DNA from: Oscillospiraceae bacterium
Lineage (GTDB): Bacteria; Bacillota; Clostridia; Saccharofermentanales; Saccharofermentanaceae
Assembly: GCA_902776845.1 (NCBI GenBank)
Contig: CACYRM010000024.1
Location: 1 to 39,638 of the forward strand
Direction: 5' to 3'
Length of the DNA stretch: 39,638 nucleotides
The notes beneath the pieces are model-generated. The model was not told the origin of the DNA. It saw nothing but the letters and a program-made list of their open reading frames with translations, and did no database searches. Positions 1,220 through 5,649 of the stretch are shown piece after piece; positions within the stretch are counted from its first letter, which is position 1, and the number at the start of each line of letters is the position of its first letter. The position numbers were made by a program, and so were the translations under genes.

Positions 1220-1822
1220 TTAAAGGCCGAAAATGCCTTTGACAAATATCTCTATTCCAATAAATATCAGTATTGCACCTCCGATTATCGTCGCAACACC
1301 GGAAATCTTATTGCCGATCTTCTTGCCGAAAATCAACCCAATTAAGCATATCACAAGAGTTACCACGCCGATTATCAAAGATGAGGCAAAAGCTTGTAAA
1401 ACGTTGTATTCAGATATGGTGAATCCTACCGAGAGAGCGTCGATCGAAGTGGCTATGCCCTGGACGATTAGGGCTCCCCAGGTAAGCTTAGCGGGTGCGT
1501 CCGCCTTCTTCCCTTCTTCGTCTTTTTCTTTTCGCTCTTTAATTCCCTCTATTATCATTTTCCCGCCGATAAACAAAAGCAGGATAAGCGCAATCCAGGG
1601 AATGAATTTGCTGAAAGAAGTAAAGATCCCTTCAAGTGTTGTTACAAGAAACCAGCCGATCAGAGGCATGAGAAACTGGGCAACAGCATAAACACCGGCA
1701 ATCTTGAGCATCCTGATCTTTCTCATATCCGGCTCTATGATGCCGTTGGCAATGGAGATTGAGAATGCATCCATCGCAAGACCAATGCCAAGAAGCAATG
1801 AATTGATTATGAGCTCTAACAC
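1220..1822 (-). CDS. mntP: Manganese efflux pump MntP
   Basis: This 200-residue membrane protein has six hydrophobic segments in two related halves, as in the MntP (DUF204) family that exports Mn(II). Conserved acidic signatures are visible in both halves: GLAMDAFSIS near the N-terminus and GIATSIDALSVG in the middle. The start is a GTG at 1820-1822, preceded by GAGAGG about 9 nt upstream. An ATG between them opens a two-codon frame only (ATG GCT TAA). The gene is directly downstream of a yybP-ykoY riboswitch, which independently supports the manganese role. The DJ-1 gene follows after 15 nt. Confidence 0.93.
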   Translation of the reverse strand: MLELIINSLLLGIGLAMDAFSISIANGIIEPDMRKIRMLKIAGVYAVAQFLMPLIGWFLVTTLEGIFTSFSKFIPWIALILLLFIGGKMIIEGIKERKEKDEEGKKADAPAKLTWGALIVQGIATSIDALSVGFTISEYNVLQAFASSLIIGVVTLVICLIGLIFGKKIGNKISGVATIIGGAILIFIGIEIFVKGIFGL

Positions 1823-1846
1823 TTAAGCCATCCTCTCTGCCCGGGC

Positions 1847-1882
1847 AAAAAAATAACCCAAGGCCGCTAAATTGCCTTGAGT
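1847..1882 (-). terminator. Riboswitch-controlled intrinsic terminator before mntP
   Basis: On the minus strand ACTCAAGGC (1874-1882) pairs with GCCTTGGGT (1856-1864) across a 9-nt loop and is followed by TATTTTTTT. Its 5' arm contains CTCAA, which is also the 3' strand of aptamer helix P1. The two structures are therefore mutually exclusive, and metal binding should favour read-through. Confidence 0.85.
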
Positions 1883-1964
1883 CTCGCAATGGAAGAATAA
1901 GCCAGGATATAACCAGTATGTTGACTTATACAACGCCTTTACCGCGTCTGCTACTCCCTCAATG
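1875..1964 (-). ncRNA. yybP-ykoY manganese riboswitch aptamer
   Basis: The minus-strand leader of mntP carries the conserved blocks of the yybP-ykoY family in order: GAGGGAGTAGC (1950-1960), a variable hairpin, AAGTCAACATACTGG, then a CTGGC segment and GCGAGACTCAAGG. Helix P1 forms between TTGAG (1958-1962) and CTCAA (1877-1881). This family is established as a Mn(II) sensor and commonly controls mntP. The overlap of P1 with the terminator indicates a transcriptional ON switch. Identification rests on pattern matching by eye. Confidence 0.9.
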
Positions 1965-1970
1965 TTCAAA

Positions 1971-2000
1971 ATTCTATCAACGGGCAGTCGAGTTAGTCAA
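1971..2000 (-). promoter_or_regulatory. Promoter of the mntP/DJ-1 operon
   Basis: The -35 box TTGACT (1995-2000) and -10 box TAGAAT (1971-1976) are separated by 18 nt on the minus strand. The predicted start falls at about 1964, right at the 5' edge of the aptamer. The 332-base gap between mntP and the regulator gene (1823-2154) thus holds the riboswitch, its terminator and two divergent promoters, with no gene seen. Confidence 0.7.
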
Positions 2001-2154: not shown

Positions 2155-2700
2155 ATGAACGAATACATTAAGCAGATATCTGACAGGATCAGAGAGCTTA
2201 GAGACATTCTTGACTTGACTGCAGAAGAAATAGCTACAGGCTGCGGCGTGAGCACAGAAGAGTATTTAGCATATGAGAACGGCGAGAAAGAGATCCCGAT
2301 CAGCATCCTTTATAAGGTTGCAAGCATTTTCAAGGTGGATCCCACAGTCCTGATGACAGGTGATGTCCCGAGAATGGATGATTATACAGTGGTAAGAGGC
2401 GGCAACGGCGTCAAGGTAGAGCGTTATCCGGGCTATTCTTTCAGCGCCCTCGCCTTCAACTATAAGCACAGACAGATGGATCCTATGATCGTTACCCTGT
2501 CCAAGTCTGAGACAGCGGAACTCGTACGCCACGGCGGACAGGAGTTCAACTATGTCATCGAAGGTGCCATCAAGGTAGTCGTCGGTGACAGAGAGTTCAC
2601 TCTTGAAGCTGGAGACTCCATTTACTTCAATCCGGAAAAGCCTCACGGACAGCGTGCCGTGACGGAGACTGCTAAGTTCCTCACGATAATCAACGAGTGA
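2155..2700 (+). CDS. XRE-family regulator with C-terminal cupin domain
   Basis: The protein has 181 residues. Residues 6-68 form a helix-turn-helix of the XRE/Cro type (RIRELRDILDLTAEEIA, then GVSTEEYLAYENGEKEIP). Residues about 105-178 form a cupin_2 barrel (HGGQEFNYVIEGAIKV, EAGDSIYFNPEKPHGQ). This HTH-cupin architecture is typical of small-molecule-responsive regulators. The ligand pocket presumably senses a metabolite, possibly linked to the acyl-CoA synthetase downstream. An AGGAGG site lies 6 nt before the ATG. The synthetase follows 58 nt later on the same strand, so the two are probably co-transcribed and the regulator may control itself. The ligand is unknown. Confidence 0.9.
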   Translation: MNEYIKQISDRIRELRDILDLTAEEIATGCGVSTEEYLAYENGEKEIPISILYKVASIFKVDPTVLMTGDVPRMDDYTVVRGGNGVKVERYPGYSFSALAFNYKHRQMDPMIVTLSKSETAELVRHGGQEFNYVIEGAIKVVVGDREFTLEAGDSIYFNPEKPHGQRAVTETAKFLTIINE

Positions 2701-2758
2701 TTTAGCAGTTCTGCCCCAAAACACGGAAATTTTGAAGTAGAAAAGGAATTATATACCC

Positions 2759-4453
2759 ATGGATTTATTAAACAGATTTGTAAATAGGATTGAGTTCGAC
2801 AGTTACGAGGATTTTAAACAGAATTTCAAGATAAATGTTCCGGAGGATTTCAACTTCGGGTTTGACGTTGTAGATGTATATGCCAAGGAGGATCCCGAGA
2901 AGGAAGCTCTAATATGGTGTGATGACGACGGCAACGAGAGACATTTCACGTTCAGGGATATAAGCGAGAAGAGCAACCGAGTTGCCAATATGTTCAAGGG
3001 ACTGGGAATCAAAAAGGGCGACAGAGTCCTTATGATGCTCCGCCAGCGTCCCGAAGTATGGTTCACGATGGTAGGTCTTCATAAGCTCGGCGCTCTGGTC
3101 ATTCCCGCCACGTTCCAGCTTCTTTACCACGACATCGTTTACAGATGCAATGCGGCAGACGTTAAGATGATCGTATGCGCTGACGATGAGCAGATCATCG
3201 AGCACGTTAACAAGGCACGTCCCGACTGCAAGACGGTTCAGTATTGCAGTGTTATCGGCAAAGCACCTGAAGGATGGAGATCGCTGACCGATGATATTGA
3301 TAACGCATCCCCTGTTTTTGAGCGTCCCACCGGTGAAGAAGCTACACACGCATATGATCCGATGATGATATATTTCTCATCCGGTACTACAGGTGAGCCT
3401 AAGATGATCCTGCATGACTATACTCTGCCTTTGGGTCACATCGTAACAGCCAAGTACTGGCAGCAGGTTTACGACGGATGCAGACACCTGACGCAGGCTG
3501 ATTCAGGATGGGCAAAGTTCGCATGGGGCAAGATCTACGGCCAGTGGATCTGCGGCGCGGTTAACGTTACTTACGATACACAGAAGTTCAAAGCAGCAAG
3601 AATGCTCGAGATCATGGAAAAGCTCAAGCTCAATTCCTTCTGCGGACCTTCCACTATCTACAGATATCTTATCCAGGAAGATCTTACAAAGTATGACTTC
3701 TCCTCCATTAAGCACTGCTCCATGGCAGGCGAGCCTCTGAATCCTGAAGTATTCTATAAATGGCAGAAGTATACAGGACTTGAGATCCGCGAAGGATTCG
3801 GTCAGACAGAAGGAAGCGTCCTGTTCGCCAACTTCCCGTGGATCGATGTAAAACCCGGTTCAACAGGTATGCCCACACCTATCTACGACATCCAGCTGGT
3901 TGACGACAATGGTGTTCCGGTTGAAGATGGTATCGTAGGAAATATCGTTATAAAGAATGCTTCTTCAAAGCCTACAGGCCTCTTCCGTGAATACTACAAG
4001 AATCCTGAAGCAATGGCAGATCAGTGGCCCGGCGCAGACTACAGCACAGGCGATACTGCCTGGAGAGATCCTGAGGGTTATATCTGGTTCGTAGGAAGAA
4101 ACGACGACGTTATCAAGTGCTCCGGTTACCGTATCGGACCTTTCGAGGTAGAGAGCGCTCTCATGACTCACGATGCAGTTCTTGAGTGCGCCGTAACAGC
4201 TGTTCCCGATCCTATGAGAGGTCAGGTCGTTAAGGCAACTGTTGTCCTTACAAAAGCTTACAAGGATAAGGCTTCACCGGAACTTGTAAAAGAGCTCCAG
4301 AATCACGTTAAGAATGCCACGGCGCCTTATAAGTATCCGAGGGTTATCGAATTCGTAGACGAGCTTCCCAAGACCACCAGCGGCAAGATAATGCGTACCG
4401 CAATCAGAAAGGCCGACGAGGAAAAATACAGAGCATCACAGGCTCAGGGTTAA
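2759..4453 (+). CDS. AMP-forming acyl-CoA synthetase (medium-chain/acetyl-CoA synthetase-like)
   Basis: This 564-residue member of the adenylate-forming ANL superfamily should join a carboxylic acid to CoA through an acyl-AMP. The core motifs are present in order: P-loop FSSGTTGEPKM (206-216), GFGQTEG (346-352), YSTGD (428-432), hinge region GRNDDVIKCSGYRIG (446-460) and PKTTSGK with the catalytic Lys543. The overall pattern (RQRPEVWF, GALVIPAT) is that of medium-chain acyl-CoA synthetases, but the acid substrate is not readable. The ribosome site is modest (AAGGAAT). The gene follows the XRE-cupin regulator and its stop codon overlaps the stop of the convergent hemW gene. Confidence 0.9.
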   Translation: MDLLNRFVNRIEFDSYEDFKQNFKINVPEDFNFGFDVVDVYAKEDPEKEALIWCDDDGNERHFTFRDISEKSNRVANMFKGLGIKKGDRVLMMLRQRPEVWFTMVGLHKLGALVIPATFQLLYHDIVYRCNAADVKMIVCADDEQIIEHVNKARPDCKTVQYCSVIGKAPEGWRSLTDDIDNASPVFERPTGEEATHAYDPMMIYFSSGTTGEPKMILHDYTLPLGHIVTAKYWQQVYDGCRHLTQADSGWAKFAWGKIYGQWICGAVNVTYDTQKFKAARMLEIMEKLKLNSFCGPSTIYRYLIQEDLTKYDFSSIKHCSMAGEPLNPEVFYKWQKYTGLEIREGFGQTEGSVLFANFPWIDVKPGSTGMPTPIYDIQLVDDNGVPVEDGIVGNIVIKNASSKPTGLFREYYKNPEAMADQWPGADYSTGDTAWRDPEGYIWFVGRNDDVIKCSGYRIGPFEVESALMTHDAVLECAVTAVPDPMRGQVVKATVVLTKAYKDKASPELVKELQNHVKNATAPYKYPRVIEFVDELPKTTSGKIMRTAIRKADEEKYRASQAQG

Positions 4454-5649
4454 AGGAAATCCTCTATAACTTTATTTGCAAGATCAAGACCGCTCCGAGT
4501 TAACCGGAGCGTTCTTTCTTTGCGCTCAAGAAGACCCTTTTCGATATTGGTCTTCACAGCCTGTCCGAATACATCTTCGAATTCGACACCGAATACGTTT
4601 TTGAATTCGTCCAACAGAATACCTTCATCTGTTCTGAGCCTTAAGAAAGGCACTTCACGCATCTTATCCTCTTCGGAAAGGATCTCTTCAACATATAAAG
4701 AACTCAACCGGTCATTGCCTTCAAGAAATGCCCTGTAGTCCTCTTCACTGACAGAATTCATCTCTTCGATATATGCGTGTATATCATCTTCGTGACCGTA
4801 TCTGACATTGCCGAGATAACCGTGCGAGCCTGCCCCGACAGCAAGATACTCACAAGAATTCCAATATGCCGAATTGTGTATGCTCCTGTATCCCGGAAGA
4901 GCGCTGTTGGATATCTCATAAGTCTCGTAGCCCAGGCTCCGTAAGCAATCACGTGTTCCGTGATACATCTCTCGCTCTTTTTCCGGAGGCATGAGATCCT
5001 CGATCGTTTTACCGTATCTTTCGAAAAATACAGTTCCCTCTTCCAGCATAAGTGAATAGGTGCTTATATGTTTTACTCCGAGCGAATAAAACGTATTTAT
5101 ATCTTTTTTTATCCCATCAAGAGTCCCGCCTGGAACTCCTGTGATCAGGTCTGCGGATACATTATTGAACCCGGCAGCTGTTATCCTTTTTATCGCATCA
5201 ACAGCGTCTTTTGAATCATGAAGTCTTCCCAGCCTTTTAAGCACTTCATCGTCCAAGGACTGGACCCCGGCGGATATACGGTTAAATCCCGCCAGTTTAT
5301 AGTCTGAAAGCTTTTCATCCGTTACGGATGACGGATTGACTTCTATGGTTATCTCCGCGTCAGAAGAAATGCTGAAGGCATCCAGTATTCCGGATAAAAG
5401 ATCACATATAAGTCTGCTGTCCGGGACCGACGGAGTCCCGCCTCCGAAATAAACCGTATCCCTGTCATCTCTGTCATTGATATGATCCTTTCCGGAAGAA
5501 TCCTTCATGATCTCTCCGAGCAGTTTTGCCTCTCTCAACGCCGCCTTGTAGAAAGCGTTACTCTCCGAAGTATCAGCGACCGAATAAAAATCACAGTAGG
5601 GACACTTCCTTGCGCAGAAAGGATTATGAACATATATATGCCGTGCCAT
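4450..5649 (-). CDS. hemW: Haem chaperone HemW (radical SAM, HemN-like)
   Basis: This 399-residue radical SAM protein carries the cluster motif C12-x3-C16-x2-C19 in NPFCARKCPYCDFYS near its N-terminus. It also has the SAM-binding motif VYFGGGTPS and the family segment SAGVQSLDD. The length and N-terminal YVHNPF pattern match HemW rather than true coproporphyrinogen dehydrogenase HemN. HemW binds haem and is thought to deliver it to respiratory enzymes. The ATG overlaps the stop of the upstream TOPRIM-like gene (TGATG), so translation is probably coupled. The stop overlaps that of the convergent acyl-CoA synthetase gene, leaving no room for a separate terminator. Confidence 0.9.
   Translation of the reverse strand: MARHIYVHNPFCARKCPYCDFYSVADTSESNAFYKAALREAKLLGEIMKDSSGKDHINDRDDRDTVYFGGGTPSVPDSRLICDLLSGILDAFSISSDAEITIEVNPSSVTDEKLSDYKLAGFNRISAGVQSLDDEVLKRLGRLHDSKDAVDAIKRITAAGFNNVSADLITGVPGGTLDGIKKDINTFYSLGVKHISTYSLMLEEGTVFFERYGKTIEDLMPPEKEREMYHGTRDCLRSLGYETYEISNSALPGYRSIHNSAYWNSCEYLAVGAGSHGYLGNVRYGHEDDIHAYIEEMNSVSEEDYRAFLEGNDRLSSLYVEEILSEEDKMREVPFLRLRTDEGILLDEFKNVFGVEFEDVFGQAVKTNIEKGLLERKERTLRLTRSGLDLANKVIEDFL

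Follow-up and report, generated by a model that had tools for sequence, protein, structure and literature searches.

Layout of the locus and its leader

The window, i.e., the whole stretch of 39,638 nucleotides analysed here, carries on its minus strand, between positions 2007 and 423 and in this order, a promoter, a leader with an aptamer and a terminator, mntP, a DJ-1 family gene, a tRNA-Ser(CGA) gene, and a terminator-like hairpin. It comes from a draft genome (G000) of 200 contigs that is 80% complete. An earlier note on this DNA had treated positions 1220 to 2000 as the unit, which covers the promoter through mntP but leaves the DJ-1 gene (1204-644) outside. The mntP gene (1220 to 1822, GTG start) follows a Shine-Dalgarno-like AGAGAGGA (1831 to 1838) and encodes a 200-residue protein of the Mn efflux pump family, matching the Mntp profile (PF02659) with an E value of 3.3e-37 and 128 bits against a cut-off of 24.4 and lying below the NCBIfam equivalog cut-off (96.3 versus 214). 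The DJ-1 gene (644 to 1204, 186 residues) starts 15 nt behind the mntP stop with a GGAGG ribosome-binding site of its own (1215-1211), just as the earlier note had described, and its product matches NCBIfam TIGR01383 over the full length (175.6 bits, cut-off 131.25). Glu16 and Cys103, which we take to be the active site of the family, are invariant in 11 of 11 DJ-1 sequences, the window's included, and the cysteine aligns with that of DJ-1 chains. The protein is related to a human Parkinson's disease protein, and its family includes human PARK7 and E. coli YajL; glyoxalase is among the published activities, and the cellular job of DJ-1 is disputed. Since the tRNA-Ser(CGA) gene (458 to 548), which lies 3′ of DJ-1 and outside the switch, comes with a separate promoter-like site (588-560), we let the unit end with DJ-1. 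The hairpin behind the tRNA (423 to 450), found by a terminator scan, is a possible transcript end. Divergent to this unit, an XRE-cupin regulator and an acyl-CoA ligase gene occupy window positions 2155 to 4453, and no manganese link was seen for them. In nine genomes of the genus (L013-L017, L019, L020, L022, and L031), MntP forms the N-terminal part of a protein of 453 to 470 residues, with a C-terminal part that matches the ZIP transporter family in five of the nine and passes the Pfam cut-off in two; these long proteins are apparent exporter-ZIP fusions.

The promoter (1971 to 2000), of the sigma-70 type, combines a -35 TTGACT (2000-1995) and a -10 TAGAAT (1976-1971) across an 18-nt spacer with an extended -10 TG, giving 10 of 12 matches. 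A promoter scan is by itself no proof, given that 5 such sites were observed in positions 400 to 2800 versus 3.5 expected. TTGACTA sits 37 to 38 nt 5′ of the aptamer UUGAG in 23 of 23 aligned loci, which were located by searching for TTGACTA, a string present in every one of the 23 loci tried.

The aptamer extends from the 5′ strand of helix P1.1 (UUGAG, 1962-1958) to its 3′ strand (CUCAA, 1881-1877). The earlier note had called it a yybP-ykoY aptamer, had proposed a covariance-model scan and had named the lack of a hit as an argument against its reading. When the scan was limited to positions 1780 to 2160, the best RF00080 match did fall in the leader (1972-1834, minus strand, E = 4.8e-6), but with 28.1 bits against a gathering score of 45, and a hit is lacking at that score only, at which the whole window gave no match. 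The source-genome search returned the same 28.1 bits (E = 7.8e-6). RF00080 matches at E ≤ 0.1 were found in 17 of 59 genomes (own included), and 0 of 59 reached the Rfam curated score, compared with 2 of 14 control genomes; this score, which is an annotation convention rather than a structural feature, is thus a poor guide in this order. Two weak RF00080 rows (L062 and L068), each showing a GGGGAGUA-like string but lacking the L3 motif, were treated as chance matches, and the mir-12 and SSRC10 matches in the leader were weak. The folding energy of the leader is not unusual either (z = 0.11; 106 of 200 shuffles fold equally well).

The structural features themselves are well kept. The adenosine that contacts Mn in the crystal of the Xanthomonas oryzae RNA, reported as A48 of ACA48UACU (PMC6754395), is present in the window, where the L1 and L3 motifs are intact according to both the sequence and the Rfam alignment. 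We aligned 22 distinct leaders, namely the window, 20 loci of named genomes, and L037 of G005; L093 was omitted because its core repeats that of L091, and the mntP-linked loci L080 and L102, being without an aptamer, are absent. The leaders were selected on GGGAGTAG and GTCAACAT, whose bases are constant for that reason; the remaining L3, P1.1, and P3.1 strands are invariant as well. Around the junction, 99.8% of 440 aptamer cells in P1.1, P1.2, P2, and P3 are standard pairs, and two P2 pairs are changed on both sides, a value reached by 1 of 500 shuffles. When six leaders from a second riboswitch class of the genus were included, 17 cells showed such two-sided changes, a count that none of 500 shuffles reached; they fall within P1.1, P3.1, and P3.2, and 99.8% of cells are again paired. 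Counted by pairs, 3 have changed in this way, and there are 6 pair types; neither count exceeds the shuffles (229 and 494 of 500). P2 was left out of this comparison since the classes do not align there, and the changes count as few events, as they lie between the two classes and the shuffle control ignores kinship. The core pattern of the riboswitch matched 10 of 35 genomes and its reversed control 0 of 35. With the Mn-sensing loops intact and the fold kept by 21 related leaders, the aptamer assignment holds, and, judged by its sequence, the riboswitch is a divergent member of the known yybP-ykoY family.

The second class just mentioned, also a Mn-type riboswitch of the genus, precedes an ABC ATPase (two sorts by eye) at L143 (G000:C60), L144, L145, L147, L150, L154, L156, L158, L181, and L186. 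Where the sequence is long enough, a large second gene follows; the one scanned, in L144, encodes an FtsX/MacB-like protein of 899 residues. We are not aware of another such ABC exporter controlled by a Mn switch. By eye, its platform opposes P1 (CAUGGG:CUCAUG) to a CUAUAC:GUAUAG antiterminator. A weak Mn-riboswitch match also precedes a similar ABC ATPase in L146 (G003:C50, 367-629); another promoter-like stretch comes after the match, and GTTAGTTTATGCTAAC lies between it and the gene. An altered ligand was considered for the second class, which reads GUCAACAUCCU, when the changed base was taken for the Mn-contacting adenosine; the idea was dropped because the X. oryzae structure report places this adenosine two bases earlier, at a base unchanged in both classes (PMC6754395).

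In the leader of the window, the aptamer runs into an intrinsic terminator (1847 to 1881) made of CUCAAGGC (1881-1874), GCCUUGGG (1864-1857), and a U tract (1853-1847). The CUCAA at 1881-1877 pairs with UUGAG at 1962-1958 as P1.1 and also belongs to the terminator, so that the two helices are mutually exclusive; the gene that follows this P1-excluded expression platform, mntP, is a predicted Mn transport gene. All 176 terminator cells in the 22 leaders are paired and invariant, which makes covariation uninformative for this helix. With ligand energy excluded, each of the 22 leaders is more stable in the terminator fold than in the P1.1 fold (-30.7 versus -19.8 kcal/mol in the window), and this fits an OFF default that is turned ON by Mn(II), as in the published model. 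A general terminator scan did not list the leader terminator, probably because its 9-nt loop exceeds the scan maximum of 8. Immediately 3′ of the U tract, GCCCGGGC (1839 to 1846) is conserved in 19 of 23 leaders and could pair with the 3′ strand of the terminator in read-through RNA. The anatomy that the earlier note had drawn for a Mn-ON transcriptional riboswitch is therefore recovered in its parts: the promoter at 1971-2000 has its equivalent, relative to the aptamer, in all 23 aligned loci, and the helix coordinates confirm that terminator and P1 share the CTCAA strand.

Linkage of the DJ-1 gene to mntP

To place the gene pair in its lineage, we searched 35 genomes of the genus, 29 of which have mntP at a total of 30 loci, and scored the riboswitch as GGGAGTAGC within 350 nt upstream of mntP. 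Ten loci have both DJ-1 and the riboswitch, one (L045, in G032) has DJ-1 alone, none has the riboswitch alone, and 19 have neither, so that the two are concordant at 29 of 30 loci. When the DJ-1 alignment was used to search named genomes, a set that overlaps this survey in species, 72 loci were obtained, with mntP directly upstream of DJ-1 in 23 (L071-L091, L093, and L102) and the riboswitch motif in 21 of those. The nearest relatives of the window's DJ-1 among these genomes carry titles such as Saccharofermentans sp. and unclassified Clostridia, and many come from rumen or gut samples. The mntP-DJ-1 gaps measure 10 to 30 nt at 23 of 23 loci, with Shine-Dalgarno-like bases by eye.

Of 148 genomes sampled across the class, 76 had both families by profile among the matches listed, weak YtaF-like Mntp rows included; the genes are adjacent in three of them (G000, G115, and G142), all of this genus, and in 0 of the 72 genomes with both families outside it, again among the matches listed. 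Contigs were compared by hand, and a pair divided between two contigs would go unnoticed. The adjacency survey that the earlier note had suggested thus recovers the pair in this genus and nowhere else among those matches; its description of the pairing as unusual stands, and a general DJ-1/mntP pairing in Clostridia, which we also considered, was set aside. The aptamer pattern itself occurs outside the genus in two genomes of a sample of 245, by eye before an mntP-like gene without DJ-1 (L180) and with a P-type ATPase (L184). A DJ-1 profile search at E ≤ 1e-20, which would miss more distant DJ-1/PfpI relatives, found one DJ-1 in 51 and none in 8 of 59 genus genomes, many of them drafts. In the linked group, the pair therefore seems to hold the only close DJ-1.

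DJ-1 might nonetheless be a passenger of the Mn riboswitch operon, holding an inherited place, served by another promoter and without a role in manganese. The tRNA-Ser(CGA) gene lies downstream in 20 of 23 sources scanned, so that some of the conservation simply reflects a chromosomal location passed on by descent, and other members of the genus (G006, for instance) carry DJ-1 away from mntP. The concordance with the riboswitch and the uniformly short gaps argue against a passenger, as does G032 (L045/L080), where mntP, DJ-1, and the tRNA are retained although the upstream DNA is a different gene cluster without the riboswitch motif. The missing riboswitch in G032 also weighs against the manganese-operon reading favored below, as do L102 (Mageeibacillus), which retains the pair behind a short leader without the riboswitch, and L180, where a riboswitch stands before the mntP-like gene without DJ-1. 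A separate DJ-1 promoter, which the earlier note had considered damaging to joint control, finds no support: 15 internal promoter-like sites were counted in 24 loci versus 16.4 in codon shuffles, i.e., no excess, but a weak TTTAC(A/G)-18-(G/A)ATAAT site does recur, at a fixed position within mntP, in 9 of the 24, the window among them. Taken together, we regard a passenger DJ-1 as possible, though on the unlikely side, and favor a DJ-1 gene that belongs to the operon.

The tRNA region showed a feature of its own. In L072, L075, L077, and L081, at about 4620 to 4930, the 5′ half of tRNA-Ser(CGA) is followed by a different sequence of some 210 nt; three of these loci then carry a complete tRNA-Ser, and L075 ends before a second copy. 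From its arrangement, this insert is an integrated small element or its remnant.

A palindrome over the -35 element

Alignment of the 23 promoters revealed that the -35 element often forms one half of a palindrome. The right half coincides with TTGACTAAC or a near-match in the 23 aligned promoters, and the left half, GTTAG, lies just 5′ of the -35 and is flanked by variable bases. Sixteen of 23 promoters match this left arm exactly, and 21 match it at 4 or more of its 5 bases, compared with only 0 to 1 of 23 promoters reaching 4 GTTAG bases at each offset from -30 to -8. The window and L074 are the two promoters below 4; the copy in the window (GTTTAGATTGACTAAC, 1992 to 2007) is degenerate, with 3 of 5 left-arm bases, so that the iron input discussed below may be lost in the source genome. 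Across 13 genomes of the genus, GTTAG-N6-CTAAC occurs at 113 sites versus 9 for the reversed pattern, an approximately 12-fold enrichment, compared with 19 versus 17 in 8 other genomes of the order. That the palindrome is a mere -35 element with conserved flanks, to which no regulator binds, would explain why its right half contains the TTGACTA required by the promoter and why the left half is poor in the window; it accounts badly for a left arm conserved amid variable bases and for an enrichment seen in the 13 genus genomes and not in the 8 others, and we consider it improbable compared with a regulator-binding site.

The genes behind such sites were examined in seven stretches fetched around them, a non-random set of four site clusters (G007, G002, and G005) and three stretches with the source genome's four sites. 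All 21 sites in these stretches lie within 400 nt upstream of an ORF, 19 of them within 110 nt. The genes include two for ZIP transporters (one scanned), a DtxR-family regulator, an ABC exporter, and a 2Fe-2S protein, together with ABC ATPases, two of which are SufC-like by eye, as well as DUF3793 and DUF6796 genes without a metal link. DtxR-family relatives are present in 17 of 21 genomes searched, and 20 of 21 aligned regulator proteins keep a Cys-x-x-Glu-His motif, which we take to be of the DtxR/IdeR iron type; MntR chains in the structure comparison have Glu in place of that Cys. The one DtxR-family protein found in the source genome (L210) has Asp where many aligned proteins have Met. 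A DtxR/IdeR operator consensus has been reported as TTAGGTTAGCCTAACCTAA (PMC7762939), and, by our own reading, TTAG-N6-CTAA occurs twice within it. The regulator motif, the genes behind the sites, and this shared core lead us to favor an iron repressor, although a manganese or zinc repressor is also possible.

Alternatively, the palindrome could bind a Mn-dependent DtxR-family activator that turns on mntP jointly with the riboswitch. Compared with solved structures, one regulator matches MntR chains best, and MntR is reported to activate mntP in E. coli and mneP in Bacillus subtilis (PMC11647493). The palindrome, however, spans the -35, where binding should block polymerase; the Cys of the regulator motif is not the residue found in MntR chains, and related sites also precede the 2Fe-2S protein and the SufC-like ATPases. 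Such an activator hence appears unlikely to us. We return to a DtxR-family, probably iron-dependent, repressor as the preferred reading: the shared promoter would probably often carry a putative iron-repressor site, adding an iron input to the manganese one, and this input is a lead from relatives that may be absent from the window's own genome. The earlier note is supported in part, its leader anatomy, tight gene pair, and unusual pairing standing as drawn, but its control model missed this second, promoter-level element, which 16 of the 23 aligned promoters carry in exact form.

Proposed control and comparison with known systems

We consider it probable that the region is a manganese-defence operon of mntP and DJ-1, controlled by a Mn-ON riboswitch and, in most aligned relatives, by an additional DtxR-type input at the promoter. 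RNA polymerase would start just 3′ of the -10, and the leader would by default fold into the terminator (OFF). Mn(II) bound in the L1-L3 site of the aptamer would hold P1.1 (UUGAG:CUCAA) and so prevent the terminator, and read-through would then cover mntP and DJ-1 together. MntP would export Mn(II), and DJ-1, the sole close family member found in the genome, would be made along with it and most likely limit carbonyl or oxidised-thiol damage under Mn excess. As the DtxR-type palindrome lies over the -35 in most aligned relatives, the operon there probably needs two conditions, the metal of the repressor (most likely iron) being low and manganese being high: an iron-loaded repressor would block the promoter, a fall in iron would permit the start, and termination in the leader would persist unless Mn(II) is high, so that the operon would be on when manganese threatens iron sites. 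What we observed are the sequence parts, the exclusion between helices, their conservation, the gene linkage, and the palindrome with its enrichment in the genus; from these we infer Mn binding, cotranscription, the identity and metal of the repressor, and the task of DJ-1.

A more far-reaching version, in which an Fe(II) repressor and a Mn(II) riboswitch act as an AND gate that computes the Mn:Fe balance and the sole DJ-1 of the cell is a dedicated manganese-stress protein, a bacterial counterpart of the link seen in animals, is one that we put forward tentatively and would not expect to hold in full. The mntP-DJ-1 operon, by its sequence features, is a new variation on a known arrangement, and the -35 palindrome is newly noticed here; the riboswitch family was already known. 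Among the matches listed in a literature search that left most subscription papers outside, no paper names the mntP-DJ-1 pair in its title or the start of its abstract, DJ-1 was not found alongside yybP-ykoY or mntP, and no serial gate arranged in this way, with DJ-1 under its control, was found. The gene pair makes it possible to ask directly and simply whether DJ-1 responds to manganese damage, and, if the iron site works, the promoter and leader would be compact DNA- and RNA-level metal sensors in series that read a two-metal ratio.

Among known systems, the X. oryzae yybP-ykoY riboswitch (PMC6754395) shares with the window the L1 GGGAGUAGC, the L3 with the Mn-contacting adenosine, and P1.1 as the switch helix. 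It controls transcription, its ligand favoring read-through, and the same direction is predicted for the window leader. The window differs by its score below the Rfam gathering value, its P1.1 of 5 pairs, and the presence of DJ-1 in the downstream pair. The E. coli mntP leader, as reported, combines a riboswitch with MntR, Fur, and Rho (PMC11647493), and its joint control by Fur, MntR, and a riboswitch means that such control is already known in principle; the likeness lies in a Mn riboswitch that works together with transcription factors, an iron regulator among them. In contrast, that report treats the E. coli switch as translational and mntP as activated by MntR, whereas termination control is expected here, and a palindrome of the window type over the -35 leads us to expect repression, unlike activation by MntR. 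The palindrome resembles the DtxR/IdeR operator (PMC7762939) in its TTAG-N6-CTAA core and in the DtxR-family gene behind one genus site; it differs in its genus form GTTAG-N6-CTAAC and in the degenerate copy of the window. The DJ-1 protein resembles the DJ-1/YajL family (TIGR01383) in its full-length match and in the Cys and Glu presumed to form the active site, and it stands apart by its place behind a Mn riboswitch. Chaperone and peroxidase roles have been published for this family, and worm djr-1.1 mutants accumulate Mn, which provides a link between DJ-1 and manganese at the level of the organism (PMC4120679).
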